From NCBI RefSeq assembly GCF_002933815.1, contig NZ_BEYR01000001.1, forward strand, positions 248,001-312,000: a stretch of DNA of 64,000 bases. The letters are read 5' to 3'. The translations under genes and the position numbers were made by a program. The stretch's first letter is position 1, and each line of letters starts with the position of its first letter. Source of the DNA: Sphingobacterium sp. HMA12. Lineage in GTDB: Bacteria > Bacteroidota > Bacteroidia > Sphingobacteriales > Sphingobacteriaceae. The notes beneath the pieces are model-generated. The model saw only the letters and a list, made by a program, of their open reading frames with translations. It did no database searches and was not told the DNA's origin. Of this stretch, positions 26,875-46,589 are shown piece by piece.

Positions 26875-26892
26875 TGGAATAATTTTTTTTCC

Positions 26893-27915: not shown

Positions 27916-27922
27916 AGCTGGT

Positions 27923-29155
27923 TTATTTGATTAAATTGTAAAAATTACTGATAGCGAGGGCGATGAGCAATACAAGTCCCAGGATGGCCCAAAATTTCGT
28001 CAATGGTTTGTTTCGGAGATCGCCCATGATCTCCTTGTCGTTGGCGATAAGAAATAGGATTATACCGATAAAAGGAACAAGGAAAATGGTGATGCTTTGC
28101 GCAAAAACAATCAGTTCTAAAGGTAGATTTCCGAAGATAAGCGCAATGGCAGAACCAAAAATCATAACCAGGGAAATGAACAGCTTGACTTTCGGGTGGT
28201 TCAGGTTATTGCCATAACCAAAGGTATCACCGAGTAATGAGCCACCGAGGACAGCATTTCCAATTAAGGACGAAAAAGAGGCTCCAAACAGTCCAATGAA
28301 AAAGAGGTGCGAAGCGTAAGTTCCCAAAAGCGGCTCCAGTGCACGCCCCATTTCGGCTGCCGAACTCAGTTTGATACCCTGTGGATGGAGTGTGTTCGCG
28401 GCACATACCATCACGGCGGCACTCATAATGCCAAGGATAATGATGCCAATCCGACTCCCCATGAGCTGCCTTTGGGTTGTCTGCCGATCGCTAGATAATT
28501 TGCGCCTGGATTGTACAAGATAACTTTGATAGAAAGCACCCACAATCGAAAAACAGGAAGCTGTAAAAGCAATGATCAGGCCGACTGAGCTGGGCGGAAT
28601 ACTGGGTACAAATCCTTTAAGAAAGTCGCCTACAGGTGTTTCAATCATAATCGCTGTTGAAAGAAAGGCAAAGAGCATAAGGATGATCAATGCCAGCATT
28701 AATTTTTCCAGCAATGCGTAGAATGATTTAAAGAAGAGTAACAGAATACCGATCACATTGAACACAATAATCCAAATTTGCGGATTCGTTCCTGTTGCTT
28801 CTGAAATGGAAATAGATACGCCAGTCGCATTGCCCGATTGGAAGCAGGTGGCGACCAGGAAAATACCGATGCCAATAACAATGGATGTTGTCTCTCCGAA
28901 TTTATTTCGGATTAAGGTGAGGAGGGATTCGTCACGGGCGATGCCGATGCGTGCCGCCATATTGGTGAATACTGTCATAAAACAGATGGCGACAACGACG
29001 ACCCAAAGGAGTGAAAAACCGTAATCGGCACCCATTTTTGAGGTAATGGTCATTTTACTTGGGCCGAAAACCAGCGCCGCAGTAATGATACCCGGTCCCA
29101 GGATGGATAACCAGTTCTTGAATAAGGAGCGTTTGGGGGCCTGTTGTTGTTTCAT
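27923..29155 (-). CDS. NRAMP-family-like membrane transporter lacking the metal-binding motifs
   Basis: Polytopic inner-membrane protein with about 11 hydrophobic segments and clear NRAMP resemblance: ILGPGIITAAL at the start of helix 1 and YLVQSRR after helix 6. The helix 1 metal motif DPGN is read here as GPSK (residues 31-34), and the helix 6 MPH segment is replaced by SIV (about 203-205). Both metal-coordinating positions are therefore lost, so manganese or iron transport is doubtful. Length 410 aa is usual for the family. It is in the middle of a sugar oxidation operon (4 bases after the PQQ dehydrogenase gene), so import of an organic acid or a Mg-type ion are the ideas to test. A recent start at MKQQQAPKR is supported by spacing to the preceding stop. 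Confidence 0.85.
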   Translation of the reverse strand: MKQQQAPKRSLFKNWLSILGPGIITAALVFGPSKMTITSKMGADYGFSLLWVVVVAICFMTVFTNMAARIGIARDESLLTLIRNKFGETTSIVIGIGIFLVATCFQSGNATGVSISISEATGTNPQIWIIVFNVIGILLLFFKSFYALLEKLMLALIILMLFAFLSTAIMIETPVGDFLKGFVPSIPPSSVGLIIAFTASCFSIVGAFYQSYLVQSRRKLSSDRQTTQRQLMGSRIGIIILGIMSAAVMVCAANTLHPQGIKLSSAAEMGRALEPLLGTYASHLFFIGLFGASFSSLIGNAVLGGSLLGDTFGYGNNLNHPKVKLFISLVMIFGSAIALIFGNLPLELIVFAQSITIFLVPFIGIILFLIANDKEIMGDLRNKPLTKFWAILGLVLLIALAISNFYNLIK

Positions 29156-29159
29156 AAAT

Positions 29160-30683
29160 TTAGCGTAATGAGTTTAAGTTCTGTTGGTTGATTTTAGAGG
29201 CATTATTCCCAAAATGAGTTCGAATATAATTTGCAACTGCGATGACCTCCTCGTCTTTGAGAAACGAAAATGCTGGCATTGCGCCCTCATAGTTGACCCC
29301 ATTGATCGACTGACCGTTCAGTCCATGCAAAAGTAGCTTTAACAGTGTTGTAGGCTCACCAATGACTGTGGCTGACTGTGCTAATGGCGGAAACGTATTT
29401 GTCAGTCCCTTACCGTCAGATTTGTGGCAGGAAGCGCAGTAGGAATCGTATATTGTTTGCCCGTTTTTTACACTCGGCGCGATAGCGTTGGCCGTTTGTG
29501 GCTTGAGGATGGGAGCTACTGCTTTATCTGAAAGCCGAAGCCGATAAATAACATCGTCATCTGGCTTCGGAAATCCTTTTTGCGGATTCCAGTCGCGGTT
29601 GCTGGAACAGAAATAGATATCGCCATTTGGTAAAACCAGGACCGAACGCAGCCGGCCAAGCTGATCTTTAAATAAGATTTTTTCATCTGTTACCTTTTTA
29701 CCATCGGCTGATAATTTCAAAATCCGTAAGGACTGGTTTTTTAGCGTTGCTAAAATCAAGCTGTTCTGCCATTCAGGAATGGTAGCGGCGCCATAATAAG
29801 CCATTCCGGAGGGGGCAACAACTGGTGTCCACGCTTTTATGGGTTCGGTTCGAGGACTTAGCTTGGCTATGGCTTTCTCCTTTTCGGTATCAATCATACC
29901 TTCAATTTGTGGCCAACCATAATTTTTAAGGGGCTGGATAAGATTAATCTCATCTTCAATGGCATCCCCATGTTCGGAGGTGTAGATCGTCCCTTTGTCG
30001 TTATGGGTAAGTCCCTGCATATTACGGAAACCCCAGGCGTAAACATAACTGTTTGCGATCGGGTTATCCGAAGGAATCGTACCATCTAGGTTTAACCGCA
30101 GGATCTTTCCGTTTAACGAACTGCTATCCTGTGCAAAGGTATCGCTTGCCGCATCGCCTGTCGCCCAATAGACTTTCTTGTCAGAAGATACAATGACACG
30201 CGAACCGTTGTGTCCGGTATTGCCCGGTATCTGCAAAAGGAGCTTTGGGTTGGACAGTCTGCCATCGGCACTGTAATCATAGCGGTATAAATTTGAAAAA
30301 ATAAGACTGTCTCTTTTACTGGTATAGGAAAGATAGAGATAGGCCTGTTCGTGTTCAGGCTGATACAAAAACATGCCTAACAGCCCAAGCGTACGTTGAT
30401 GGTAGACCTCTTTTAGGCTGTCAACTAAGCTGACCGTTTTTGTTTGTATATCCAGCCTTCGGATACTTCCGCCGATTTCCGAAAATAAAATAGCCTGGTT
30501 CACACGGTCGTATTGTAAATCCCATGGAACCTGCAGGCCGGTGGCTTCTTTGGATAAGGAAAGTATGCTATTTTCCAATTGGATGCTGTTGATTATGGCT
30601 GTCTCCTTTTCGTCCCGGGTAGAACAGGAAGATAGAAATGATATCAATAGCAATAGCCAAACGCAGTTTATTTGTTGTTTCAT
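29160..30683 (-). CDS. PQQ-dependent aldose dehydrogenase (GSDH type) with C-terminal cytochrome c domain, lipoprotein
   Basis: Membrane-anchored periplasmic sugar dehydrogenase oxidising an aldose to its lactone and passing electrons to the fused haem. Lipobox LSSC puts lipidated Cys at residue 20. The six-bladed propeller (about 40-385) shows HNGSR (His158), SEHGDAIEDEIN, GWPQIEG and APSGMAYY, signatures of the glucose/sorbosone dehydrogenase family. The cytochrome c domain (about 403-490) has CASCH (Cys416, Cys419, His420) and the likely axial Met469 in AMPAF. First gene of the left-going operon; a promoter with a TTGTATACAA operator lies about 90 bases upstream. Sugar specificity is unknown; PQQ would have to be made or scavenged, as no PQQ synthesis gene is in the window. 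Confidence 0.9.
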   Translation of the reverse strand: MKQQINCVWLLLLISFLSSCSTRDEKETAIINSIQLENSILSLSKEATGLQVPWDLQYDRVNQAILFSEIGGSIRRLDIQTKTVSLVDSLKEVYHQRTLGLLGMFLYQPEHEQAYLYLSYTSKRDSLIFSNLYRYDYSADGRLSNPKLLLQIPGNTGHNGSRVIVSSDKKVYWATGDAASDTFAQDSSSLNGKILRLNLDGTIPSDNPIANSYVYAWGFRNMQGLTHNDKGTIYTSEHGDAIEDEINLIQPLKNYGWPQIEGMIDTEKEKAIAKLSPRTEPIKAWTPVVAPSGMAYYGAATIPEWQNSLILATLKNQSLRILKLSADGKKVTDEKILFKDQLGRLRSVLVLPNGDIYFCSSNRDWNPQKGFPKPDDDVIYRLRLSDKAVAPILKPQTANAIAPSVKNGQTIYDSYCASCHKSDGKGLTNTFPPLAQSATVIGEPTTLLKLLLHGLNGQSINGVNYEGAMPAFSFLKDEEVIAVANYIRTHFGNNASKINQQNLNSLR

Positions 30684-30767
30684 TGTCGGTCAATGGTTAT
30701 TTTTTTGATTTATCTGGTTATGTCAAAATTAGTTTATTAAAAATAAATATACAAAAAATAATGTAAA

Positions 30768-30777
30768 TTGTATACAA
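30768..30777. promoter_or_regulatory. GntR-type operator TTGTATACAA, left copy
   Basis: Perfect 10-base palindrome that fits the TnGTnnnACnA pattern of FadR-subfamily GntR regulators. It overlaps the -7 element of the left-going promoter. The 17 bases TGTATACAAAAATATTG at 30769-30785 recur exactly at the lactonase promoter (40155-40171). Confidence 0.7.
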
Positions 30778-30807
30778 AAATATTGGCAGCACATTGCTAA
30801 ATTCAAT
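30775..30807 (-). promoter_or_regulatory. Candidate promoter of the PQQ dehydrogenase operon
   Basis: Minus-strand ATTG (30807-30804), 21-base spacer, then TATTTTTG (30782-30775), an exact match to the Bacteroidota -7 consensus TAnnTTTG. The -7 element overlaps the operator at 30768-30777, which would give direct repression. Confidence 0.55.
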
Positions 30808-30898
30808 TTAGTCTTCTCATTTATTAATTTAATGGATGGTTTAGTTATACTAATCTGTATTTATTATAAAGGTCTTTTTGTAAAAAAATAAAAAAAAT

Positions 30899-30930
30899 AT
30901 TGAATTGTATACAAAAAATATATATTATTG
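30899..30930 (+). promoter_or_regulatory. Candidate promoter of the third susC operon
   Basis: ATTG (30899-30902), 20-base spacer, TATTATTG (30923-30930), each one mismatch from TTTG / TAnnTTTG. The operator at 30905-30914 lies inside the spacer. Confidence 0.45.
30905..30914. promoter_or_regulatory. GntR-type operator TTGTATACAA, right copy
   Basis: Second perfect palindrome in the divergent region, between the -33 and -7 elements of the candidate susC promoter. A weaker copy (TTGTATTCAC) follows at 30929-30938. Confidence 0.68.
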
Positions 30931-31058
30931 TATTCACTATGATAAAGTATAGAGGCGGAGTCATCATAAATCAGGACTACGAAATACCGCTTCTTTTAAA
31001 TACCAATAAACTGAAGAGCTTATAAATCATTTATTTAACCACTTTAACCTGAGTATTC

Positions 31059-34000
31059 ATGATACTAAAACAGATTAAAATCCGGGATGTGATAAACAGG
31101 AACTGTCTTTTGGTCGGACTGCCTTTTATTTCAATGGGTGCGTTTGCCACCGTTCCGTCTTTTCCTCACCTGGAAAAGATTCCTATTCAACGCGTTCTTA
31201 ATTCGGCTGGGAACGCAGCAAATTTTCAACAGCAGATCGTTGGGCAGGTGCTCGATGCGAAAGGTCAGCCCTTGGCTGGGGTGGAGGTGCGCAATCTTAA
31301 AAACTCATCTGTTACGGTGACAGACCAGGAAGGACGTTTTAAATTGAATGGGGCATCTTCGGATCGCATTCAGTTTCGTCTAATTGGTTTTAGTACAAAG
31401 GTGGTCTCGGCGAGTGACGTGCAGGCTTTGGTGCTTGAAACGAATGAAAATGCCCTTGATGAAGTCGTTGTAGTTGGTTATGGTAAGCAGAAGAAAGAGA
31501 ATCTGACAGGTTCTGTTTCCAGTGTTAGATTTGATGAGTCAACGGTGAGTCGGCCAAACATGAATTTGGCGTCTGCTTTGGTCGGTAAGGCTTCTGGGCT
31601 TAATATCGCGCAGACCTCCGGTAGTCCCGGTGCAGAAGGATTTGACCTGTTGATTCGTGGCAAGGGGACAATGAATGATGCTTCCCCTTTGGTTGTCATT
31701 GATGGGGTGCCCGGTGCGTTGAATGATGTGAATCCCAATGACGTAGAAAGCATATCCGTGTTGAAGGATGCGTCATCGGCTGCCATATATGGTTCCCGCG
31801 CTGCGAATGGCGTTATATTGGTAACCACCAAGCGCGGTAAAGGAGAAGATTTTACTGTAACTTATAATGGGTACTTCGGGCGTCAGCAAGTGGCTAAAAA
31901 TATCGATTTTATAACCGATATGGCAACCCATATGGAGCTTGTAAACGAGTCAGAAGGGCGAGAAAAATATAGTGCTGAATTAATTGATACCTGGAGAAAG
32001 GAGTCGGCGGCCGGTAATCCGCTGTATCCAAATACAGATTGGTACAAGGAAATGCTGAATACCGCACCCTTAACCGAGCATACGCTGTCTGTTCGTGGCG
32101 GTGGAAAAAAAGGAAATTTTGCCATGTCCTTGGGTTTTCTGGATAATAAGGGGGTAGTGGATAATTCTGGTTATAAAAAATATGATTTTCGGATTAATGC
32201 CGATACGAAAATCAAGAATTTCTTGACATTGGGCGGAAATGTTTTTGGTACCTGGTCAAACCGTCAGCCGCTGGATGTGAATAGCTTTTTTGGAGCGATT
32301 CGTAATACCACGCCCGGGGTTGTTCCACTGTATGAGGACGGTCGTTATGGAGGGGAGATGTTTCGAGGGCTCCCTCAGGGTGCTAATCCAAGAGCTTATG
32401 TAGATAATATTCGGGGTGATTACGAAAGACAAAGGCTTGGTCTTAAGTTTTTTAGTATAGTAAATTTCATGGAAAATCTAGAGTGGGAGAGTAGTTTTGG
32501 TTTTAATTACAATAATAATCGGAATTGGGAATATGTGCGGCCTTACTCCTTGTGGAATTTACAGACTGGATTGGAATATCAAAAAAAGCCAAGCGTAAGT
32601 AGTTTGTTCAATGGTAGTATCCGTAATTATACAACGGTGTTGAATACCTTGTTGCGGTATCGTGAAACAATTGCTGAGAATCACCATTTGGCGGTATTGC
32701 TGGGTTTTGATCAGCAGTATAACCGTCTGGACAAATTTGATGCAAAAAAGAATGATATATTGGGGGATGATGCGATCTATATTCTGGATGCGGGGGCAAA
32801 CCTTGAAGCGATCAATGGTTCCGGAACAGATGATGCCCTCCAGTCTTATTTCGGCCGTTTGAATTATGATTTTAAGGGGAAATATCTATTTGAAGCAAAT
32901 GCACGCTATGACGGTTCTTCCCGATTTGCAAAGGAGAATAGATGGGGGTTCTTCCCGTCCTTTTCAGCGGGCTGGCGTGTAACGGAAGAGGCGTTTGCTC
33001 AGCCTTTGAAAGCTGTATTTGATGAAATTAAAATTCGTGGTTCATGGGGTAAGCTGGGGAATAATAGAATCGGCGATTATACTTATCAAGTCGTATACGG
33101 TTCCTATTTATATCCATTTGGCGGTCAGCTGAAGCAAGGAGTGGCGCCAAAGGAAATCGCGAACAGTAAAATAAAGTGGGAAACGACCACGATTGCTAAT
33201 ATCGGTTTGGATCTTGCTCTATTAAATAATAGGTTGACTTTTAGTGCAGAATATTTTGATCGCAATACATCTGATATCCTGACGAAGATCCCTATTCCTA
33301 TGGTGATGGGTAACTTTTCACCGCCTTGGCAAAATGTTGCCGAGATGCGTAACAGAGGGGTTGATCTTCAGCTTGGATACTTTGGGAAAATAGGTGCAGA
33401 TTGGTCCTACGGTTTAAATGGTAACCTGTCCTTCCTGAATAATAAAGTGATTAAGTTCAATGGCAATAGATCAATCAACGAAAGTTATATTACGATGGAA
33501 GGAAAGCCTTTCAATAGTTTCTTTATGCTTGAATTTGATCGAATTATACAGGATCAAAGTGAAATTGATCAATTGAAGGCAGATGGTTATACTTTTGGGA
33601 CATATGTAGGCGGAGAGCCTAAGCCGGGGGATATGTTGTACAAAGATGTGAACGGTGACAAGGTGTTCAATGAGGAGGATAGGGTTGTCAAGAATTATTC
33701 GGGATTGCCTAAAGTAACTTACGGACTGAGTCTGAATGCCGGTTATAAAGGCTTTGATCTGAACGTCGTGGCACAGGGTGTTAGTGGTGTGAAGCAATAT
33801 TGGGGTAACGACGGTTTTAATACGTTCAACATTAATGAAGGTTTCTTGCAGAATGCCGAAATATTAAATCGCTGGACACCTGAAAACCATTCTACCGAAT
33901 ATCCGCGACTGCGTACTTCGGGCAGTGCTTTAAATACCGTGTATAGTGATTATTGGTTGCAGAATACCTCGTTTTTGAGGATAAAATCGCTACAGCTGGG

Positions 34001-34175
34001 TTATGCGCTGCCAAAAGAAGCTTCGGCGAAATTTAAAGTGGATAGATTACGTGTATTCGCTAATCTGGAGAATTACTTTACATTCACAAAGTTCAAAGGT
34101 TATAATCCGGAGAACGCCAGTGTCTCTTATCCCTTAATGAAACAATGGGTAGTTGGTTTAAATGTTACATTTTAA
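31059..34175 (+). CDS. SusC/RagA-family TonB-dependent outer-membrane transporter
   Basis: Outer-membrane porin of the second catabolic locus, 1038 aa. N-terminal export signal (about 1-30, SMGAFATVP), a spacer with low similarity, then the regulatory-like domain IVGQVLDAKGQPLAGVEV (about 61-130), VVVVGYGKQ, plug domain with LLIRGKGTM and VVIDGVPG, and a barrel ending in VGLNVTF. The spacer between signal and beta-sandwich is longer than in the PUL copy at 4786. Expression is expected to be under the GntR regulator at 38653 because the operators lie in the promoter. Its SusD gene starts 11 bases after its stop. Confidence 0.95.
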   Translation: MILKQIKIRDVINRNCLLVGLPFISMGAFATVPSFPHLEKIPIQRVLNSAGNAANFQQQIVGQVLDAKGQPLAGVEVRNLKNSSVTVTDQEGRFKLNGASSDRIQFRLIGFSTKVVSASDVQALVLETNENALDEVVVVGYGKQKKENLTGSVSSVRFDESTVSRPNMNLASALVGKASGLNIAQTSGSPGAEGFDLLIRGKGTMNDASPLVVIDGVPGALNDVNPNDVESISVLKDASSAAIYGSRAANGVILVTTKRGKGEDFTVTYNGYFGRQQVAKNIDFITDMATHMELVNESEGREKYSAELIDTWRKESAAGNPLYPNTDWYKEMLNTAPLTEHTLSVRGGGKKGNFAMSLGFLDNKGVVDNSGYKKYDFRINADTKIKNFLTLGGNVFGTWSNRQPLDVNSFFGAIRNTTPGVVPLYEDGRYGGEMFRGLPQGANPRAYVDNIRGDYERQRLGLKFFSIVNFMENLEWESSFGFNYNNNRNWEYVRPYSLWNLQTGLEYQKKPSVSSLFNGSIRNYTTVLNTLLRYRETIAENHHLAVLLGFDQQYNRLDKFDAKKNDILGDDAIYILDAGANLEAINGSGTDDALQSYFGRLNYDFKGKYLFEANARYDGSSRFAKENRWGFFPSFSAGWRVTEEAFAQPLKAVFDEIKIRGSWGKLGNNRIGDYTYQVVYGSYLYPFGGQLKQGVAPKEIANSKIKWETTTIANIGLDLALLNNRLTFSAEYFDRNTSDILTKIPIPMVMGNFSPPWQNVAEMRNRGVDLQLGYFGKIGADWSYGLNGNLSFLNNKVIKFNGNRSINESYITMEGKPFNSFFMLEFDRIIQDQSEIDQLKADGYTFGTYVGGEPKPGDMLYKDVNGDKVFNEEDRVVKNYSGLPKVTYGLSLNAGYKGFDLNVVAQGVSGVKQYWGNDGFNTFNINEGFLQNAEILNRWTPENHSTEYPRLRTSGSALNTVYSDYWLQNTSFLRIKSLQLGYALPKEASAKFKVDRLRVFANLENYFTFTKFKGYNPENASVSYPLMKQWVVGLNVTF

Positions 34176-34186
34176 GACGAAAAGCC

Positions 34187-35803
34187 ATGATTAAGAAATT
34201 TAACAAGATAATAATTGCATCACTTGCATTAGCGCTACTAAGTTCTTGTAGTGATTTTTTGGACCGAAACTCATTGGTCGGTCTTTCGGAGGAGAGTTTT
34301 TGGAAGTCTGAGCAAGATGCTGTCATGGGGGTGAATACCCTTTACCATGCCAATAGGGAATTTACAAATAGTATTGTGATTTATGGGATGATGGATGATT
34401 TTACCGATATATCCTATCAGTCTTTTGCAACGGGATTGACAACGGGTGTTTTTCCTGCCAATGCGGGTTTTTACCTCACCTCTTGGGGGATATTTTTTAA
34501 AGGAGTGTATCGTGCAAATACGGCCCTGAAGAATATTCCTGCTATCGCAATGAGTGAAGCTATAAAAAAACGGAGTATTGGCGAAGCTAAGTTTTTCCGG
34601 GGGTATTTTTATTTTAAATTATGGGATTATTTCGGGGGAGTTCCTTTGTATGACAGCCCGATCAATGTGGATGAATCTTATGAGCCCCGCAATACGGAGA
34701 AAGAGGTGTATGCGTTTATAGTCAAAGATATGACCGAAGCCTATGAGACATTGCCGGATACATATGATGCTTCAAATAAGGGGCGTGTGACCAAATGGGC
34801 GGCCCTCGCCATGCGGGGCAAAGCGCATCTTTGGGCAAAGGAATATGCAAAAGCTGCTGCTGATTTTAAGGAGCTGATGGATAAAAGTGACCGCAAGTTG
34901 CTTGCTGATTTCCATAGTTTGTTTCGGGTTGCCGGAAATAACAATAGTGAAGTGATCTTTGATGTGCAATATATTGCTGAACAGGGGAACGGTATAGCGA
35001 CCGATCGTAATTATGGGAATGCTCGGGGTGCGACGACAGGATCCCAGAGGACAAGGCCCACACCTCAGCTTGTCAATGCTTTTGATATGGAAGATGGAGC
35101 GCCCTTTGATTTTGCGAATTATACCAATGCAAAAGGGCAGCCTTTTAATCCCAATAGTGTGGAAGACTGGAAAGATGAGGCTTCGGTACGTAAGCTTTTT
35201 GAAAAACGTGATCCACGCTTGCAGCAGTCTATTGTTGTGCCATGGTCGACTTTTGTGGGGCGTGGTGGTGTGTCTTATCTGTACAAGTTTCCGGTGGCGA
35301 GTACCGATCCGAATGCTTATGTGCCTGTGTGGACAAACGGCAGCTACGCCTGGCGGAAATTTGTGGAGACAGGTTCTGTTTATACACTTCAGGATAATAT
35401 GCCACAAAACTTTCCGTTGATTCGCCTGGCGGACGTGCTGCTGATGTATGCTGAAGCAAAGAATGAGGCCCTGGGTGCACCTGATCAAACGGTCTATGAT
35501 GCGGTGAATGCAGTTCGTAAGAGAGTTAAAATGCCTGATTTGCCTTCTGGCTTGAGTAAGGCGTTAATGCGTGAAAAAATACGTCGCGAACGCATGGTAG
35601 AGCTGGCTGGTGAGGGGCAGCGGTATTCGGATATCCGACGATGGAAAATCGCAAAAGATGTCGTGGATAAAGTTTGGATGACAGATTTTAACGGAACGCA
35701 GATCAGGCAGCGGGGGTTTCCGGATCATTATTATCTGTGGCCTATTCCGCAGGCGGAAAGGGATGTGAATCCAAAGTTGACACAAAATCCGGGTTGGGAG
35801 TAG
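34187..35803 (+). CDS. SusD/RagB-family glycan-binding lipoprotein
   Basis: Partner of the SusC before it. The start at 34187 (MIKKFNKII) gives a proper lipoprotein signal with lipobox LSSC; an upstream in-frame ATG at 34145 lies inside susC and would put a polar stretch ahead of the signal. Signatures: SCSDFLDRNSL, EAKFFRGYFYFKLWDYFGGVP, RRERMVELAGEGQRYSDIRRW, and the ending LTQNPGW. Length 538 aa from this start. It is followed 46 bases later by a lyase gene, a usual susCD-lyase order. Confidence 0.94.
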   Translation: MIKKFNKIIIASLALALLSSCSDFLDRNSLVGLSEESFWKSEQDAVMGVNTLYHANREFTNSIVIYGMMDDFTDISYQSFATGLTTGVFPANAGFYLTSWGIFFKGVYRANTALKNIPAIAMSEAIKKRSIGEAKFFRGYFYFKLWDYFGGVPLYDSPINVDESYEPRNTEKEVYAFIVKDMTEAYETLPDTYDASNKGRVTKWAALAMRGKAHLWAKEYAKAAADFKELMDKSDRKLLADFHSLFRVAGNNNSEVIFDVQYIAEQGNGIATDRNYGNARGATTGSQRTRPTPQLVNAFDMEDGAPFDFANYTNAKGQPFNPNSVEDWKDEASVRKLFEKRDPRLQQSIVVPWSTFVGRGGVSYLYKFPVASTDPNAYVPVWTNGSYAWRKFVETGSVYTLQDNMPQNFPLIRLADVLLMYAEAKNEALGAPDQTVYDAVNAVRKRVKMPDLPSGLSKALMREKIRRERMVELAGEGQRYSDIRRWKIAKDVVDKVWMTDFNGTQIRQRGFPDHYYLWPIPQAERDVNPKLTQNPGWE

Positions 35804-35849
35804 AAATACTTCCGTCCCTTGGTTAAATAGTTGTATTGTATTATTCGTA

Positions 35850-38582
35850 ATGAGTGTGATGAAAACATATTTTTCGTTGTTTATGGTATTGGGGTTAGTG
35901 TCGGTTTCCCGTGCGCAGCAAAAAGAGATTCTAGTTGACTTGAGTCGGGGTGACTTAAATAGAAAGACCGTCGCTTATGAAAAACCAACGGGAGGAGCTG
36001 GGCGGGGGCTGGTGTTGAAAATCGCCCCCATTGCAGGTTACCCTGATCGCGTGGCAGATATTGAAGTTGCGGTTAAGGTGCCGCAGGCAGGGTGGTATGC
36101 GTTGGAGTCAGATGCTCGGCCTCAAGATTTGGAGCGATTAAAACAAGAAGATGAAACAGGCTTACTGACAAAAGTTGCCTATTTTCAACTGGGGAAACAA
36201 CGGGTGACAAAACGTGTTGTGTATGATAATCTGAAAGGTGGGCATCAGGAGCTTGGAAAATTTGAGCTGCTGAATACAACGGAAAAATTGAAAATCTGGC
36301 TACCTGCAAATTTAATGTTGCAGGGCTTGCGCATCAGGCCCTATGTCCCGCCTGTGGCACCTTTAGAGGCTGTGCATTATCAGCCTAAAATTACACCGCC
36401 GCAAGAAAGGCCAAGGTTGTGGGTGAATAAAGAAAGTTTGCCTGTTGTTAGGAAGCGGCTTTTGTCTGAAGAGAATGGTCCGGCGTGGGCTAAGGTGAAA
36501 GTCACCGCTTTAGCGCCTTATACCTTTCCGACTAATGGAAATCAGGAAATATTTTACAACGAAGGGCTGGAGCATGTTATTGAGCAGAAAGCTTTTTACT
36601 ACCTTATGACGCAGGATGAACGAGTCGGCAGGGAAGCTGTGGATCTGGTTTCGCGTTATTTGTCAGTTCTGGAATTTGGGAATGTAACACACGGTGATAT
36701 TACCCGGGAATTGGGACGGGCAATCTATACAGGGGCACTGGTCTATGACTGGTGTTATCCACTGATGGATACCGGTTTAAAGAGTCAGATGCAGAAGGAT
36801 TTTAAGCGATTGGTCATGGATATGGAAGTGGGATGGCCACCATTTTATGGGCTAGAGAGTATTATTAATGGTCATGGTAATGAAGCACAAATCTGCCGGG
36901 ATATGCTGTCCTGGAGTTTGGCAGTATATGATGAAGATCCTGAACCGTATAAATATGTTGCTTATAGTGTTCTGGAGCAGCTTGTGCCAATGCGTAAGTT
37001 CGAATATCAGTCCCCACGGCACAACCAGGGGGTTGATTATGGTGGTTATCGCTTTGGCTGGGAAATGCATGCTGCCTGGTTATATTATCGTATGCTGGGT
37101 TATCCCGTATTTGATGATAATATCAAGAATATGCCCTATTATTGGTTGTACATGCGTACACCTGACGGGAAAATGCTGCGTGATGGCGATATGTTTAATG
37201 TGAAGTATAATTCCAGTGATGATTTTTATTGGAAGAACCCCCAAACAATGCTGCTTTGTTACGCTTACTCGGGAAATGCAATGATCAAAGCTGAGTTTTT
37301 GAAACAGGGTGGTTTGCCTGACAATCCAGTACTGTTTCTGTTGTTAAATGATCCGAAGCTCAAAGCGGATTACGATCGCTCAGAGCTGCCATTGACCAAG
37401 GATTTTGGGCCGGTTTTGGGGTCTATGGTTGCTCGGACTGGATGGAGTGAGGAGAAAACAAGTAAGGAGGTCGTTGCGGAAATAAAAGGTGGTGGTTATC
37501 ATTTTGGAAATCATCAACATGCGGATGCCGGTGCCTTGCAGATTTATCATCATGGTATTCAGGTGGGTGATCTGGGTTTATATCTTTCTTATGGATCACC
37601 TTATGATTTTAATTTTAATAAGCGTTCCGTTGCGCACAGTATGCTGTTGGTTCGCGATCCTGCCGAGCCGCTCTTGTTCCGGACCAAAACTAATGATGGT
37701 GGGACGCGGTTTAGTCAGCGCTTTCCGCGTACTGTTGCGGAAGTGCTCGGTGACTCCTGGTACCATACCGGAGAAATCAGGGCTTCTGCATTTGGTACGG
37801 ATCCTATCCAGCCTGCTTATAGTTACTTTAATGCAGACCTTACCGCGGCCTACTCGTCCAAAGTAAAGTCGTATGCAAAGAGTTTTCTGTTTTTGAATCT
37901 GAAACGGAAAGATGTGCCTGCTGCTATTGTGTTATTGGATGAATTGGAAACCAATAATAGTGAATTTCAACCCTACTGGCAGATTAATACCCTGAATAAA
38001 CCAGTTATCAATGAAGCAGGCTTTGTTTTGAATAACCAGTTTAAGGATATGGGCGGGACGACCTATATCGATATGTTTAAGCCTGCGGTGGTCGATCGGG
38101 AGGTGAAAATTTATGCGGGTGATTCCACGGCTTTTGTATTTGGAGACCAGTATCAGGTAAAATCGCCCTGGCCGGAGGCGCGCGGGGCGCGGGTTTTGGT
38201 TAGTCCAAAAGCTAAAAGTGCGCAAGTGAGTTACGCGACGGTTTTTCAAATGGTGGAAAGTGCCGAAGCAAAATTACAGGTGAATTACGAGGAAAAGGAA
38301 GATTATTACCTGATTCGGATTGCAGATCGCATGCTCGTTATTGCCAAACCTGATCGATATCTCGATAAAACGGTTGAAATCGCTGTTCCTGCGGATCAGG
38401 AATATGAAGTGATTGTCGTGGGCTTGAAAGATGGTTTCTGGAATGTGAAAAATCCATCGAAAAATAGTAGCTTTAATATAAATATCCTCAAAGGGAATCA
38501 TACAACCAGTTGGAAATCTAAGGCAGAGCTATTCTATTTGTCACCGGGGAGACAGTATGGTGCCCGTGAAGGGGCGTTTTAG
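35850..38582 (+). CDS. Heparinase II/III-like polysaccharide lyase
   Basis: Predicted periplasmic lyase for a uronic-acid-containing polysaccharide. Signal peptide ends near SRAQQ (start at 35850, or ATG at 35859). An N-terminal beta-sandwich (about 25-175) precedes an (alpha/alpha) toroid (about 190-500) with INGHGNEAQ near 335 and QSPRHNQGVDYGGYRFGWE, then the heparinase II/III beta-sandwich with the hallmark GGYHFGNHQHADAGALQIYH near 548. Those Asn, Tyr and His residues are the usual catalytic set. 910 aa is longer than PL12 heparinases (about 650-750) because of the N-terminal domain. Substrate not deducible; the regulator and the downstream sugar-acid enzymes fit uronate. Same strand as susCD, with gntR 70 bases behind. 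Confidence 0.87.
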   Translation: MSVMKTYFSLFMVLGLVSVSRAQQKEILVDLSRGDLNRKTVAYEKPTGGAGRGLVLKIAPIAGYPDRVADIEVAVKVPQAGWYALESDARPQDLERLKQEDETGLLTKVAYFQLGKQRVTKRVVYDNLKGGHQELGKFELLNTTEKLKIWLPANLMLQGLRIRPYVPPVAPLEAVHYQPKITPPQERPRLWVNKESLPVVRKRLLSEENGPAWAKVKVTALAPYTFPTNGNQEIFYNEGLEHVIEQKAFYYLMTQDERVGREAVDLVSRYLSVLEFGNVTHGDITRELGRAIYTGALVYDWCYPLMDTGLKSQMQKDFKRLVMDMEVGWPPFYGLESIINGHGNEAQICRDMLSWSLAVYDEDPEPYKYVAYSVLEQLVPMRKFEYQSPRHNQGVDYGGYRFGWEMHAAWLYYRMLGYPVFDDNIKNMPYYWLYMRTPDGKMLRDGDMFNVKYNSSDDFYWKNPQTMLLCYAYSGNAMIKAEFLKQGGLPDNPVLFLLLNDPKLKADYDRSELPLTKDFGPVLGSMVARTGWSEEKTSKEVVAEIKGGGYHFGNHQHADAGALQIYHHGIQVGDLGLYLSYGSPYDFNFNKRSVAHSMLLVRDPAEPLLFRTKTNDGGTRFSQRFPRTVAEVLGDSWYHTGEIRASAFGTDPIQPAYSYFNADLTAAYSSKVKSYAKSFLFLNLKRKDVPAAIVLLDELETNNSEFQPYWQINTLNKPVINEAGFVLNNQFKDMGGTTYIDMFKPAVVDREVKIYAGDSTAFVFGDQYQVKSPWPEARGARVLVSPKAKSAQVSYATVFQMVESAEAKLQVNYEEKEDYYLIRIADRMLVIAKPDRYLDKTVEIAVPADQEYEVIVVGLKDGFWNVKNPSKNSSFNINILKGNHTTSWKSKAELFYLSPGRQYGAREGAF

Positions 38583-38626
38583 TAAAGGAATATATTGTTT
38601 AAATTTTTTAAATGATTTTGTATTCT

Positions 38627-38634
38627 TATTTTTG
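38627..38634 (+). promoter_or_regulatory. -7 element of the gntR promoter
   Basis: TATTTTTG, exact match to TAnnTTTG, 18 bases before the gntR start codon. No good -33 element was found at the usual distance. Confidence 0.45.
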
Positions 38635-38641
38635 TAGAAAA

Positions 38642-38651
38642 TTGTATACAA
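38642..38651. promoter_or_regulatory. GntR-type operator TTGTATACAA at the gntR start
   Basis: Perfect palindrome ending one base before the gntR ATG and just downstream of its -7 element, covering the expected transcription start and ribosome-binding area. This suggests autorepression and links the regulator to the copies at 30768, 30905, 40154 and 40177. Confidence 0.7.
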
Positions 38652-38652
38652 T

Positions 38653-39291
38653 ATGAAAGAGGATTCGCTTGCCAATAAGGTGTATTTGGAAGTCCGCAAG
38701 AAGATTTTATCAAGTCAGCTCGCTGGCGGGGCGCGGTTGGTCGAAAGTGCCTGGGCCGATAAGCTGGCTGTAAGCAGAGTGGCTGTTCGCGAAGCCTTTA
38801 TGCGTTTGGCGGGAGAGAGTCTGGTGGAATTTGGTGAAAAAGGAGGTTGCTTTGTGAAAAAGATGACCGTCGAGGATGTGCGGGATATCCGTGAACTGCG
38901 TGAATTGCTTGAAGTCGGTGCTTTAAAGATTTTGTTTTCAAAAAAGAATAAAGAACTGATTGATGATTTGGAATTGATCTGCAATGACTTTTCGGATATG
39001 GTCAGCAAAGGGTATTATGGTGGAGCTTGTGAGGCAGATGTACGCTTTCATGAACGTATTATCGAGGGGACTTGTAATTCCAGGTTAATTGCGATTTATA
39101 AAAATAGCAATATACCTTTATTTCACATGAAATTGGGTGCTATTCTTGGGCAGATGGAGGATTACCTGGATACCGAGCAAGAGCATCGTGCGATTGTGGA
39201 TGCATTAAAAGCGAATGATTGGAACAGGGCTTATGAGACGCTGGTGCATCATCTCGATCGAGGCGAGCAGGAGGCTTTGGAGCTTGTTTAA
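38653..39291 (+). CDS. GntR-family transcriptional regulator, FadR/FCD subfamily
   Basis: DNA-binding regulator, probably a ligand-released repressor. An N-terminal winged helix (about 5-72; recognition region VSRVAVREAFMRLAGESLVE) is followed by an all-helical FCD ligand domain (about 80-205). Metal-site residues are visible: DVRFHERI (Asp and His) and HRAIVDAL and LVHHL near the C-terminus. The 212-aa length is typical. FCD members often sense sugar acids, such as hexuronates. It lies between a polysaccharide lyase and sugar-acid genes, and the palindrome TTGTATACAA occurs directly before it and at the promoters of the flanking operons, so it is the likely regulator of the whole locus. A terminator follows directly. 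Confidence 0.92.
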   Translation: MKEDSLANKVYLEVRKKILSSQLAGGARLVESAWADKLAVSRVAVREAFMRLAGESLVEFGEKGGCFVKKMTVEDVRDIRELRELLEVGALKILFSKKNKELIDDLELICNDFSDMVSKGYYGGACEADVRFHERIIEGTCNSRLIAIYKNSNIPLFHMKLGAILGQMEDYLDTEQEHRAIVDALKANDWNRAYETLVHHLDRGEQEALELV

Positions 39292-39316
39292 GGTTTTACT
39301 AGAATATACAAAAGAG

Positions 39317-39348
39317 AAGGGGATATAGACTATAATATCCCCTTTTTT
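39317..39348. terminator. Bidirectional terminator between gntR and the lactonase gene
   Basis: 10-bp stem (39317-39326 with 39335-39344), 8-nt loop, T-run TTTTTT on the plus side and A/T-rich on the other. The hairpin overlaps the last codon and stop of the convergent lactonase gene (stop 39330-39332). Confidence 0.82.
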
Positions 39349-40127
39349 GTGTGATTCAGTTGTAGTAATTGCCCCTTTTCCGCTTCTGTAATAATCAATC
39401 CAATTACTCCGGATGGGTCTAGTGCACAATTGGTTGGGTTTTTTCCTGATGTTTGAATTTTTTTAGTGGCTGTACCGCTTTGATCCAGCACTAAGATATG
39501 CGATGAGCCATATATGGCAACAAATAAATTGCCTTCCTCATCAAATGCGATCCCATCGGGTCCGATCTGTCCACCTGCAAGTGCAAATTTTTCAATGGAA
39601 TCCATTTGGCATGATAAGGCATTCCAGTTCATTTTCCAGATCCATTTACTGCCTGTTTCAGCAACATATAGTCTGCTGCTATTGGGGGCAAAGGCTAGTC
39701 CGTTCGGATAGTACATGTTCTGATGGACTGCATGAGCAGTGCCATTGGTCTGTAGGCAGCAGATGTAGCCTGTTCCATCTGTCAATTCGCTTCCCGGACA
39801 GGTAAATAACAGGTTTCCGCTGCTGTCAAAGCATAAGTCGTTGGGCATTTTTAATGCTTTGTTGTTCAATTCATTAAGGCGGGTTTCGCAGCTGCTGTTG
39901 GCAGGGTTATACCTGCGGATGCTGTTTTGTAATGCGTCGCAGAACCAGATCGTTCCGTCTGGCGCAACAGCAATCCCGTTGGGATGTCCGCCAACCTGTA
40001 TGCGATCGTGCTTGTTATCTCTGTAGCGGATTAGGTTGCCGGCTTCTTTTTCTACCAGCCATATATCGCCTTGCTGATCAAAGGCGGGGCCTTCCGGAAA
40101 GTGTAGGCCGTCAATAAGTACATTCAT
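39330..40127 (-). CDS. SMP-30/gluconolactonase-family lactonase
   Basis: Six-bladed propeller enzyme hydrolysing a sugar lactone to the aldonic acid with a divalent metal. Start at 40127 (MNVLIDGLHFPEGP) is preferred; an upstream ATG at 40163 lies within the operator/-7 region and encodes a basic, non-family stretch. Metal-binding residues fit the family: Glu in FPEGPAFD, Asn in PNDLCFDSSG, Asp in PDGIAFDEEG; also GGHPNGIAVAPDG. No signal peptide is evident, so it is probably cytoplasmic. 265 aa, normal. Transcribed alone toward the gntR terminator; its promoter carries the same 17-base block as the PQQ dehydrogenase operon, so the dehydrogenase product would be its natural substrate. Confidence 0.88.
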   Translation of the reverse strand: MNVLIDGLHFPEGPAFDQQGDIWLVEKEAGNLIRYRDNKHDRIQVGGHPNGIAVAPDGTIWFCDALQNSIRRYNPANSSCETRLNELNNKALKMPNDLCFDSSGNLLFTCPGSELTDGTGYICCLQTNGTAHAVHQNMYYPNGLAFAPNSSRLYVAETGSKWIWKMNWNALSCQMDSIEKFALAGGQIGPDGIAFDEEGNLFVAIYGSSHILVLDQSGTATKKIQTSGKNPTNCALDPSGVIGLIITEAEKGQLLQLNHTKKGIL

Positions 40128-40153
40128 CTGAATTATTTTAAAATTTATTTTAA

Positions 40154-40186
40154 ATGTATACAAAAATATTGTAATTTGGTATACAT
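40154..40186. promoter_or_regulatory. Two GntR-type operator copies between lactonase and aminotransferase genes
   Basis: ATGTATACAA (40154-40163, 9 of 10 matches) and TGGTATACAT (40177-40186, 8 of 10), both with the GTATAC core, 23 bases apart centre to centre. The left copy overlaps a minus-strand -7 element TATTTTTG (40168-40161), as in the PQQ dehydrogenase promoter. The right copy presumably serves the right-going operon that begins at 40286, for which I found no clear promoter. Confidence 0.62.
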
Positions 40187-40285
40187 AAAATGATGTGTAT
40201 TTAAATACAAGATTGCTGTATCACAGATTAGGTGCGAGGCAGTACTCCAATTATAAAAATAATAAAAGCAAAACTTTTAATAAGC

Positions 40286-41608
40286 ATGCAAGAAAACGAA
40301 AGATCAGCCGCATTACTGCGCGAAAATGCAAAATGGATACCAGGTGGTGTGGTATCGTTGAACAGAAAGTCGGATCCCAATATCTGCTTCGTTAAGGGAA
40401 AAGGTAGTTATGTGGAGGATATCGACGGAAATAGTTATATCGATTATCAGGCTGGATTTGCAGCTTCCTTTCTTGGTCATAATGATCCGGATGTCAATGC
40501 TGCGGTATTGAAGACGCTTCAAGAAGAGCAGGTGCTGATGGGAGCAGGTCCTACTTTATTGGAAGGGGAGTTTGCGGAACTGTTTTGTGCATCGGTGCCC
40601 AATGCCGAGAGCGTGCAGATCACGACAACGGGATCCGAGGCTACTTACCATGCTATCCGGATCGCCCGTGCCGTGACAGGGCGCGATCATATTATTGTCA
40701 TGCAGGGCGGATACAATGGTTGGCATAATGATGTGGCCTGCAATGTAATCAGCCAAAAACTGGATATCGGATCTTACCAAAGTCCAGGTGAATACCCCTT
40801 TGATTCATTGAGTGCCGGGGTTCCCAAAAACCACAGTGATCTGGTGCATGTCATCAATTACAATGATCTGGATAGTGTTCGCTACGTGCTGCAGAAGTAT
40901 TCAGTAGCCTGCATCTTATTGGAACCTATTTTACAGAATATCGGTATCGTTAAACCGCAACCAGGATATTTGGAAGGACTTCGCGAGCTTGCAGATGAGC
41001 AAGGGTTCCTATTGATCTTTGATGAGGTAAAGACCGGATTTAGACATGCTTTAGGCGGTTATCAATCCATTTGTGGTGTTCAGCCAGATCTTTCCACCTT
41101 TGGAAAGGCAGTGGCGAATGGTTATCCTTTGGGTGTAATAGCGGGAAAGAAAAAGTACATGGATTATTTTGTTGATCCAGATAAAGCTAAGCGGGTCATG
41201 ATTGCGGGAACATTCAATGCTTTCCCGTTGACAACAGCTGCGGCAATTGCAACTTTGAAAAAACTTTCTAGTCCTGAGCACCAAGTCTATAAGCATGTAG
41301 AACGTTTGGGCGCACGTTTGGAACAGGGATATCAGGAAATATTTCCTAAATTAGGTGTACCATTTTTTGTCGCTCGTCAAGGCTCGGCCTTCTGTACTTA
41401 TTTTATGGATCATGCGCCGCTTAATTTTCACGATATTTTGGATAATCACGATTTCGAACTGGATATCCGCTACCGCAAAAATCTCATAAAAGAAGGAATT
41501 TTTAATTTCCCGGCTGCAATTAAACAGGGGAGTATTTCCTTTGCACATACGGAAGACGATATCGACCGGACCTTAGAAGCGACAGCACGTGTAATAAAAA
41601 CTTTGTAA
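40286..41608 (+). CDS. Class III PLP aminotransferase resembling glutamate-1-semialdehyde aminomutase
   Basis: Fold-type I PLP enzyme of the class III group. The start [14 protein letters not shown] (40286) is preferred over ATG 40232, which adds a basic segment and lies closer to the operator. Motifs: [21 protein letters not shown] near residue 20, [14 protein letters not shown] near 120, [10 protein letters not shown] (PLP-binding Asp) and [14 protein letters not shown] with Schiff-base Lys274. About 440 aa, as expected. Haem synthesis is unlikely to be its role: it is first in a sugar-acid operon with an enolase-superfamily dehydratase 8 bases downstream. Related enzymes transaminate or move amino groups on small keto acids or amino-sugar derivatives; the substrate here is unknown. 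Confidence 0.88.
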
Positions 41609-41616
41609 CCCTGACT

Positions 41617-42795
41617 ATGAAAATAACCGCTATCGAAACCTTTGTATGTCATGCGCGCATGCGAAATTGGATTTTTGTTAAAGTTGTAACTGATCAGCCC
41701 GGACTTTGGGGCTGGGGTGAAGCGACGCTGGAGTGGCATACGCAAAGTGTCGTTGGTGCAATTAAAGATATTTCCCAGCTATTGATCGGCGAGGACCCAC
41801 GCCGCATTGAATATCTGTGGCAGATGATGTACCGCCAGCATTTTTGGCATGGGAACGGAATTGTCCGCGGAACGGCTATCAGTGGTATTGACATTGCCCT
41901 ATGGGATATTTTAGGTAAAATTCATAATGTGCCCTGTCATGAATTGTGGGGTGGTCGTGTACGAGATTATATCCGTCTCTATTGTCATTTGGGTGGTGGC
42001 CGAATGGAAGATTTTTACGAAACAGCACCGGACGACGCTAAACGGTTTGGTGATCTTGCCTTGAAAGCTGTTGATGAGGGTTTTACGGCTTTTAAATCCA
42101 TGGCTGTTCCGGAAACGATGTCCCTGGAAGGGCTTCGTCCGATTAAATATGCTGAAGCCTGTGTAAAGGCAATGCGGGATGCCGTGGGTGACGATATCGA
42201 TATTATGGTAGATTGCCATGCGCGTCCTAGTCCACGCATGGGGATGCAATTTGCCAAAGCGTTAGAACCTTATGGTCTGTACTTTTTTGAGGAACCATGC
42301 TGGCCCGAAACCATGGAGGATATTGCCCTGATCCAACGGGCAGTAGCGACACCTATCGCTTCCGGCGAACGCCTGATCGGTGTGCATGCTTTTCGGGATA
42401 TGCTTGAAAAACGTGCGGTAAGTGTTATTCAGCCTGATATTACCCATTGCGGTGGTTTATCCGAAGCCCGTAAAATAGCTGCTTTGGCGGATGCTTATCG
42501 CGTGTCTATGGCGCCGCATAATCCACAGGGACCCGTAAGCACTGCTGCCTCTATCGAGTTGGGCTTCGCAACACCTTCGTACATTATCTGTGAAAGTGTT
42601 CACAAAGATGTTGAATGGCGGCAAGATGTCGTCAGTGAAGGATTTACGGTGCAAGAAAAAGGCCGCATTGTCCTTCCGAATACACGCGCCGGTCTGGGGA
42701 TTGAAATCAATGAAGAAGAAGTGAAAAAACACCCGTTCCAACAGGAAATTTTACAGCGTACGTTTTACAAAGATGGCAGTGTTGGTGACTGGTAG
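41617..42795 (+). CDS. Enolase-superfamily acid-sugar dehydratase, galactonate dehydratase-like
   Basis: Mandelate racemase subgroup enzyme that dehydrates an aldonate to a 2-keto-3-deoxy acid, Mg-dependent, cytoplasmic. The catalytic set can be aligned by spacing to E. coli galactonate dehydratase (D183, H185, E209, E235, H285): here Asp199, His201, Glu225, Glu251 and His301, with identical intervals of 2, 24, 26 and 50; Asp274 in [11 protein letters not shown] is the partner of the base. A capping domain forms the first 120 residues. 392 aa is normal. It lies 8 bases after the aminotransferase and 13 before an SDR. The spacing is strong evidence for dehydratase function; galactonate itself is only one possible substrate. 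Confidence 0.9.
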
Positions 42796-42808
42796 ATTTT
42801 AAGTAGAT

Positions 42809-43579
42809 ATGAGAGCAGAATATAAAAACAAAGTAGTTTTGATCAGTGGTGGACTTGGTGATATTGGCAGGGCAATAGCCGAGGCTTTCCTGACGGCGGA
42901 GGCAATTGTCTGTATTGCGGATCGTTTTGTGCCAGCGCTTGCGAAAGAGCGGTGGCCTTTGCTCGATGAATCTCAGACCAACTTATTTTACGATCAGGTT
43001 GATGTCACAGATGCTGATCAGGTGGAGTTTTGGGTTGATCGTATAGAGCGGGAGCTTGGAGCAATAGCGATCTGTATTGCTAATGCGGCCTGTGTCACAA
43101 TCCAAAACTTTCGGGAGCTCAGCAATACGGCATGGAAAAACGAAATGGCAGTCAATCTGGATGGTGCTTTTTTCTTGGCCAATGCTTGTGCTAAATCATT
43201 TGTTGCTACTGGTGTTCAGGGAAATATTGTCTTTTTGGGTAGTTGGGCAGGGCATGCCGTGCATCAGAACCTGCCGGCATACAGTGTTTCCAAAGCTGGT
43301 TTACGGATGCTTTGTCAAGCTATGGCACTCGAATATGCTGTTGATGGAATTCGCGTCAACGAAATTGCGCCTGGTTATGTCAATGCGGGATTGAGTAAAG
43401 TGGTTTGGTCCAAGGATGCCGCGCTTCAAAAAAAGGCTGCCACGGTTGTACCGCTGGGGGATATCCTCGAAGCGGAGGAAATTGCCAAACAGGTGCTTTG
43501 GATATGCTCTGACAATTGCAGACAGATGACGGGGACAAGCATTGTACTGGACGGGGGGCTTTCATTAATTAGACCTTAG
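42809..43579 (+). CDS. Short-chain dehydrogenase/reductase (classical SDR)
   Basis: NAD(P)-dependent oxidoreductase, 256 aa, cytoplasmic. Nucleotide motif SGGLGDIGRAIAEAF near residue 11, IANAA near 90, catalytic Ser in FLGSWAGH near 147 and YSVSK near 160 are all intact, and the C-terminus has the usual TGTSIVLDGGLSL. Asp after beta-2 (IADRF) suggests NAD preference. Position between dehydratase and ceramidase-like genes suggests it oxidises or reduces an acid-sugar intermediate, for example a keto-deoxy acid, but the substrate cannot be told. Confidence 0.9.
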   Translation: MRAEYKNKVVLISGGLGDIGRAIAEAFLTAEAIVCIADRFVPALAKERWPLLDESQTNLFYDQVDVTDADQVEFWVDRIERELGAIAICIANAACVTIQNFRELSNTAWKNEMAVNLDGAFFLANACAKSFVATGVQGNIVFLGSWAGHAVHQNLPAYSVSKAGLRMLCQAMALEYAVDGIRVNEIAPGYVNAGLSKVVWSKDAALQKKAATVVPLGDILEAEEIAKQVLWICSDNCRQMTGTSIVLDGGLSLIRP

Positions 43580-43582
43580 ATC

Positions 43583-46520: not shown

Positions 46521-46589
46521 CTTAACTTGTTGGACGATTCCTTATGAAAGTATCGTAACTGAAATATCTTTTTTACCAATACATCGATA

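Follow-up and report, generated by a model that had tools for sequence, protein, structure and literature searches.

The locus and its palindromes

The window considered here is a stretch of 64,000 nucleotides from the genome of Sphingobacterium sp. HMA12 (6.47 Mb over 14 contigs). It contains gntR, a gene for a regulator with an FCD effector domain, together with four neighbouring transcription units: a predicted operon headed by gsdh, a predicted SusC/SusD/lyase operon, a gene for an SMP-30/gluconolactonase-like protein (the lactonase) and a predicted seven-gene operon headed by a class III aminotransferase gene (Table 1). Ten-base palindromes (dyads) lie upstream of all five units. They stand in pairs at a distance of 23 base pairs (bp) at the structural operons, overlap elements resembling the promoter -7 box, are conserved across lineages and co-occur with gntR. 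Through these dyads, which share the core TGTATACA, the gntR product probably acts as a repressor of its own gene and of at least four adjoining units, and sequence comparison makes a regulon over five transcription units well supported.

The motif, TTGT-AT-ACAA, is a palindrome of conserved TKGT and ACMA boxes, and in the dyads of the window two bases separate GT from AC. An earlier note, made from the letters of the window alone, had reported perfect copies at 30768, 30905 and 38642 and variants at 40154 and 40177, and every position is right, as is the identity of the 17-mer TGTATACAAAAATATTG at 30769 and 40155. It listed the 40154/40177 sites but overlooked the dyads at 30745 and 30928 and the common spacing of the three pairs, which measured from start to start are 30745/30768, 30905/30928 and 40154/40177. 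Its general formula, TnGTnnnACnA, has three bases between GT and AC and is thus one base too long. It saw a likeness to UxuR and ExuR; the closest documented operator is ATGTATACAT, which in the available text of its description belongs to Atu1419, not to a hexuronate regulator (PMC7797058).

With at most one mismatch, the window contains 4 matches to the dyad against 2.7 expected. Such a count shows no excess and would suit palindromes arising by chance in A+T-rich intergenic DNA, and conservation was therefore used as the test instead. Perfect copies of TTGTATACAA number 7 in the whole genome (6 for the reversed-pattern control); three of them fall within 7.9 kb at this locus, all intergenic, and the other four are inside called open reading frames. 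One of these four, C3:335263, may itself be intergenic because the true start of the lipoprotein gene concerned is probably downstream of the site, which would leave three clearly intragenic copies. The pattern of a 23-bp pair has two matches in the genome with one mismatch, at the susC pair (B) and the lactonase/aminotransferase pair (D/E). Two mismatches add seven others, six inside open reading frames and one intergenic, and at up to three mismatches the count of 44 is mildly above the control of 29. The intergenic pair, at C1:713600-713630 of this genome (G000, L094), is a possible further target.

Table 1. Coordinates in the window of the genes, dyads and predicted promoter elements
Feature	Position	Strand	Remarks
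gntR	38653..39291	+	212 amino acids; GntR DNA-binding (PF00392) and FCD effector (PF07729) domains, above Pfam cut-offs
Predicted operon GSDH-cytochrome c / Nramp-like / epimerase-like / DHDPS-like	25816..30683	-	gaps of 4, 7 and 18 bases
gsdh	29160-30683	-	pyrroloquinoline quinone (PQQ)-type sugar dehydrogenase-cytochrome c fusion
Nramp-like gene	27923-29155	-	
Epimerase-like gene	26893-27915	-	
DHDPS-like gene	25816-26874	-	
Predicted operon SusC / SusD / heparinase II-like lyase	31059..38582	+	
SusC	31059-34175	+	TIGR04056, 889.7 bits (cut-off 368.25)
SusD	34145-35803	+	SusD_RagB
Heparinase II-like lyase	35850-38582	+	HepB model 417.9 bits, under the cut-off of 600; heparinase II structures 338.9 bits
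SMP-30/gluconolactonase-like protein (lactonase)	39330..40127	-	Pfam SGL
Predicted operon of 7 genes	40286..48783	+	class III aminotransferase first, GFO/IDH last; 69-bp gap ahead of M20
MFS gene	24419		candidate regulon member; 134 bp from the DHDPS-like-to-GFO span
Dyad A2	30745..30754		AAATATACAA, 7/10; gsdh side, 23 bp from A1
Dyad A1	30768..30777		TTGTATACAA, perfect; gsdh promoter
Dyad B1	30905..30914		TTGTATACAA, perfect; within -33/-7 spacer of predicted susC promoter
Dyad B2	30928..30937		TTGTATTCAC, 8/10; 23 bp from B1, starts inside the -7
Dyad C	38642..38651		TTGTATACAA, perfect, single; ends 1 base ahead of the gntR ATG
Dyad D	40154..40163		ATGTATACAA, 1 mismatch; lactonase side
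Dyad E	40177..40186		TGGTATACAT, 8/10, 2 mismatches; aminotransferase side, 23 bp from D
Predicted susC promoter	30900..30930	+	TTG at 30900-30902, 20-base spacer, TATTATTG at 30923-30930; 1 mismatch to consensus
gsdh -7-like element	30782-30775	-	TATTTTTG; abuts A1, the distal dyad
Predicted gntR -7	38627-38634	+	TATTTTTG
Lactonase -7-like element	40168-40161	-	TATTTTTG
Aminotransferase -7-like element	40172-40179	+	TAATTTGG, 1 mismatch

Conservation of the dyads and of the 23-bp pairs

Footprinting covered 49 sequences, that is, the window, 38 loci and 10 further stretches, and 11 named genera are represented among the 48 related loci. Among named bacteria, the nearest relatives of the window's gntR are in Sphingobacterium species (identity up to 100%), where dyads occur at the orthologous gsdh, susC, SMP-30/aminotransferase and gntR positions. 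They are found at structural positions in Niabella, Pedobacter and Allomuricauda/Flagellimonas as well, with one pair between nramp and susC in Flagellimonas, and also in the rearranged loci of Olivibacter, Chitinophaga, Niastella, Dyadobacter, Larkinella and Lunatibacter; in Chitinophaga a pair precedes an nramp-epimerase-DHDPS-M20-GFO gene run. The palindrome is thus conserved at orthologous promoters across the compared loci, as the earlier note had expected of a true operator. Its proposal of a self-controlled regulon is likewise supported by the comparison, over five transcription units, but the extent it gave, 25 kb, comes to 23 kb from the DHDPS-like gene to GFO.

The distance of 23 bp stands out by itself. 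When 124 intergenic dyads of the 38 loci were scanned for a second dyad at other offsets, the match was 5.27/10 at +23 and 4.27/10 at -23, against a background of 3.05 (standard deviation, s.d., 0.41) at offsets from 11 upward, and among 19 representatives offset 23 came first in all five structural classes, of which nramp has 3 rows. By a loose criterion (match sum of at least 15, each dyad at least 6, within 300 bp upstream), a 23-bp pair is present in 132 of 149 structural upstream regions: gsdh 26/26, susC 38/45, SMP-30 33/35 and aminotransferase 35/43. These regions are not independent: a single one serves both SMP-30 and aminotransferase, and there is overlap between those taken for gsdh and susC. 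Genes internal to operons, taken as controls, gave 1/253, and nramp gave 4/17, being the operon head in those 4 loci; with other spacings the structural regions gave from 0/149 (22 bp) to 61/149 (21 bp). Eight of the 17 misses are aminotransferase genes of Cytophagales loci, where they lie behind other genes. Among susC genes, one is missed at a contig end (L049), two stand behind gsdh (L060, L061), in two loci another susC was picked (L066, L067) and in two the pair is just past 300 bp (L085, L086); SMP-30 is missed in L063 and L084.

A strong helical phasing between the gsdh pair and the susC pair (p 0.003 on distinct values) was rejected, one of those values being a 23-bp self-overlap. After collapsing, the phasing is weak (p 0.03 with 8 lineages, 0.07 with 7) and serves as the sole, indirect probe of a looping tetramer of the Atu1419 type.

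The gntR gene itself follows another rule. A dyad matching at least 8 of 10 positions lies exactly 11 bases ahead of the start codon in 32 of the 49 sequences, and seven further gntR genes have a dyad of 9 or 10 matches at 17 to 56 bases. No clear peak for a partner dyad was found at 23 bp in the 6 usable rows, where offset 23 scored 4.17, tied with offset 26 (background 3.01, s.d. 0.56), and by the loose criterion a pair lies upstream of gntR in only 5 of 49 cases. Compared with the precedents Atu1419 and DgoR, the 23-bp pair as the rule at structural promoters, beside a single dyad at the regulator gene, is new. In S. yanglingense (L043), S. tabacisoli (L045) and a metagenome-assembled genome (L072), a perfect dyad is found farther from gntR, at 144, 269 and 178 bases rather than 11, a picture suggestive of inserted DNA that separates the operator from its gene. 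Where gntR and SMP-30 converge in the window, there is a strong hairpin with a T tail (39317-39344) between them, likely a terminator.

Co-occurrence with gntR in the genus

The pattern TGTATACA-N15-TGTATACA, which corresponds to the 23-bp pair, was searched with at most one mismatch in 93 genomes of the genus, a gntR orthologue being called at an E-value of at most 1e-30. It is present in 35 genomes, namely in 29/29 with gntR and 6/64 without, and the Fisher value of 1.6e-18 should be taken as a guide only since the genomes share descent. The neighbouring spacings show no link to gntR: N14 (22 bp) occurs in 6/29 genomes with the gene and 10/64 without, and N16 (24 bp) in 2/29 and 6/64. By a hand count, 58 of the 67 N15 places are no more than 13 kb from gntR on the same contig; one is on another contig of a fragmented genome, two are elsewhere in genomes with gntR and six are in genomes lacking it. 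None of the 18 N14 and 9 N16 places in the 93 genomes is at a gntR locus. The 23-bp pair therefore tracks the presence of gntR in related genomes, in line with the check that the earlier note had proposed.

It is this co-occurrence, with the conservation at orthologous promoters, that makes the strong evidence against chance, and both the promoter comparison and the genus scan leave palindromes of accidental origin with a practically negligible probability. The information content of the genus rows was not used, as rows picked by the pair criterion make it partly circular. The gntR gene is present twice in one genome of the genus (G092; L083, L084), with 78% and 60% identity to that of the window, and the second copy adjoins ceramidase-like and SSF genes without a lyase gene.

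Position of the dyads in the promoters

Promoters of Bacteroidota have a -33/-7 consensus, which was used for the predictions. In 53 promoter rows from 21 sequences, the best position of a TAnnTTTG-like element is 5 bases ahead of the proximal dyad, with a score of 4.91/6 (background 2.17, s.d. 0.64), part of which stems from the dyad itself, whose first bases are often common to the -7-like element. TA lies outside the dyad and was therefore counted alone; 37 of the 53 rows have it in position (susC 15/17, aminotransferase 13/13, SMP-30 7/12, nramp 1/2, gsdh 1/9). The earlier claim that every site sits at a promoter agrees with the predictions for susC, lactonase, gntR and aminotransferase, the exception being gsdh, whose best -7 abuts the dyad at 30768.

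Dyads that cover the -7 and the start region favour repression. FCD regulators include activators such as CitO, in the available parts of the literature (PMC4746285, PMC6608401), and it could be imagined that GntR with its ligand activates the structural operons in the manner of CitO, the dyads being activator sites; this is improbable, as the proximal dyads are on the -7 and start region, not upstream of the -33.

A more serious question is whether the pairs act as units. The dyads may be real GntR operators that work singly, the distance of 23 bp merely fitting a Bacteroidota promoter, with dimers that make no contact. At susC the first dyad is within the spacer and the second starts in the -7, gntR retains a single dyad, and Atu1419 binds single dyads, according to the accessible part of its report (PMC7797058). 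On the other hand, a dyad in the spacer could shift without damage to the promoter, no pairs of 22 or 24 bp occur at the locus, and the distance of 23 bp is kept at gsdh despite another promoter register and at the SMP-30/aminotransferase region, where one pair serves promoters of opposite orientation. Independent action of the dyads is rather unlikely in view of these points. The alternative, for which somewhat more can be said and which is still put forward tentatively, is a composite operator in which two 10-bp dyads at exactly 23 bp on the core promoter would be held by two dimers or one tetramer as a cooperative clamp. The gsdh and susC pairs, which face each other across a region of 375 bp, would perhaps be bridged, the lone dyad of gntR might let the repressor gene and the structural genes respond at different effector levels, and the regulon would mark out an oxidative pathway, so far unassigned, for a glycan that contains amino sugars.

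The GntR protein and its recognition of the dyad

The protein scores 44.5 bits against PF00392 (cut-off 27) and 70.5 bits against PF07729 (cut-off 24.3), which places it in the FCD (FadR) subfamily; only 3 FCD regulators are present in its own genome. Its matches in the PDB include Atu1419 (second-best, 56 bits) and TM0439. A metal site is predicted in the FCD domain: of its ligands, D129, H133 and H178 are the same in all of 18 orthologues and H200 in nearly all.

Helix 3 reads VSRVAVREA in the window and VNRMA(I/V)REA in Larkinella, Dyadobacter and Lunatibacter. In these three genera the dyad centre is AT in 0/12 cases (AA, TT or TA instead), against 186/190 elsewhere, a contrast that amounts to about one split of the tree and includes redundant rows. 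This joint difference in operator centre and recognition helix offers a natural experiment in operator evolution. The second gntR copy of G092 has a helix 2 like that of the VNRM group and a helix 3 with SRV, and its dyad is TTGTATACAT.

The palindrome is short, and another regulator might own it, with gntR a mere neighbour. This is very improbable given the 29/29 co-occurrence, the dyad at the gntR start even in the rearranged loci of Olivibacter and Chitinophaga, the joint change of helix and dyad centre, and a core identical to that of Atu1419, as given in the available text on that protein.

At the position of FadR Arg35 (by the author's residue mapping), the orthologues looked at have Ser, Asn or Asp and TTGT sites, and among other FCD genes with a dyad, two with Arg have TGGT and three without Arg have TTGT or ATGT. 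The parts of the survey of Suvorova 2015 that were available state that Arg at that helix-turn-helix position prefers G/C (PMC4494728), and the base so preferred would be the second one of TGGT/TTGT. In a coarse scan of 22 non-orthologous FCD loci of Bacteroidota, 19 with a usable gene, none of the 19 genes had a 23-bp pair; strict dyads lay upstream of 5. Two of these FCD genes have two like dyads, TTGGTNNACCAA at 16 bp in Pedobacter (L103) and TTGTC..GACAA at 30 bp in Chitinophaga (L130). The TTGGTNNACCAA copies in L103, and CTGGTTAACCAG at the start of the Allomuricauda regulator in L102, are candidate operators of a different type.

Proposed mechanism of regulation

In the proposed model, one GntR dimer would bind each dyad, and at the structural promoters two adjacent dimers over the core promoter would block RNA polymerase. 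A single dimer downstream of the gntR -7 would bring about self-repression, perhaps of a weaker kind. A sugar acid of the pathway (an aldonate or 2-keto-3-deoxy acid) may bind the FCD metal site and cause the release of DNA, and the genes would thus be kept off until a breakdown product of the glycan appears.

To the flat count of near-matches in the window and the shared descent of the genus genomes must be added other points that weigh against this model. Six genomes lacking gntR carry the 23-bp pair, which is most likely due to chance; gntR has no dyad within 60 bases in Niabella, the first copy in G092 and some others of the 49 sequences; the gsdh -7 is not matched to the proximal dyad; H200 is replaced by Gln in Pedobacter; and the change of the recognition helix goes back to roughly a single event.

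Pathway and substrate

The products of the regulon would import an acidic glycan, perhaps one that contains amino sugars, and cleave it; the sugar would be oxidized at C1, its lactone opened, and the product dehydrated and split by aldol cleavage, and deacylation and transamination would also take part. With susC and susD beside a gene for a polysaccharide-active enzyme, the lyase closest to heparinase II, the locus has the composition of a Bacteroidota polysaccharide utilization locus. The aminotransferase operon encodes, in order, the class III aminotransferase, a galactonate dehydratase-like enolase (333 against a cut-off of 311), an SDR protein, a ceramidase-like protein, an SSF symporter, an M20 amidohydrolase and a GFO/IDH protein. 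The DHDPS-like protein has a weak family match only, and a PDB search gave no match for it. A single predicted pathway would join the heparinase II-like lyase, the class III aminotransferase, the aldonate dehydratase-like enolase, the DHDPS-like protein and the Nramp-like transporter.

Structure and family searches named enzyme classes but no substrate. Neighbouring proteins elsewhere include GH20-like proteins in Chitinophaga and a 3-keto-disaccharide hydrolase-like protein in Niastella. The best guess, of low confidence, is that the substrate is an acidic glycan with amino sugars and that its breakdown is non-phosphorylative; the identity of the effector would give a lead to this substrate. 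The Chitinophaga gntR neighbourhood (L062, 1-9949) has two GH20-like proteins, a DUF7133 protein and an enolase-like protein. A separate polysaccharide locus occupies 21-24236 of the window, with two SusC-type receptors, SusD, an alpha-L-fucosidase, GH2, GH95, an alginate lyase-family protein, a GH88-like protein and a hybrid two-component regulator.

Comparison with known systems

The comparisons here draw on the available portions of the cited papers. Atu1419 of Agrobacterium fabrum (PDB 6Z74, 6ZA3, 6ZAB) is a repressor of the VanR group of FCD regulators, which includes TM0439 and has a six-helix FCD domain without domain swap, and it binds its operator via Arg45 on G3 (PMC7797058). It resembles the GntR of the window as an FCD protein with a 10-bp palindrome of TGTATACA core, autoregulation and a three-histidine metal site (the last two predicted for GntR), and its dyads lie over the -10 or in the -35/-10 spacer, like those at the predicted promoters of the window. 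However, its two dyads are separated by 190 bp (or 109 bp) and brought into a loop by a tetramer, with no 23-bp pairing, and it acts in a proteobacterium on hydroxycinnamic acid degradation with methylenetetrahydrofolate as effector.

DgoR of Escherichia coli has two close inverted repeats over one promoter (PMC7674646, PMC12288454), a layout that is found here also, by sequence. It controls a galactonate pathway, which recalls the galactonate dehydratase-like enolase of the window, and its sugar-acid effector, an aldonate, needs a divalent metal; its first repeat, TTGTAGTACAA, differs by a 3-nt gap and no divergent SusCD operon is described. AusR of Zobellia galactanivorans, compared by description, is another GntR-family repressor of polysaccharide-use genes in Bacteroidota but belongs to an alginate system (PMC8286568, PMC8073546). 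A literature search, with most subscription papers outside its coverage, found no publication that deals with this regulon or with FCD operators paired at 23 bp.

The FadR-subfamily motifs of Suvorova 2015 (PMC4494728) are similar in their TKGT/ACMA palindrome and in the double sites of divergons. The UxuR motif there has a 2-nt gap and that of ExuR a 3-nt gap, and thus the two models chosen in the earlier note differ from each other. The FadR-subfamily parts of that survey describe extra half-sites 7-12 nt from the centre but no fixed 23-bp pair. As the main survey of such motifs has 0 Bacteroidetes regulators in its FadR set, the present case adds a motif together with its exact spacing, the promoter register predicted for it and a list of predicted targets.

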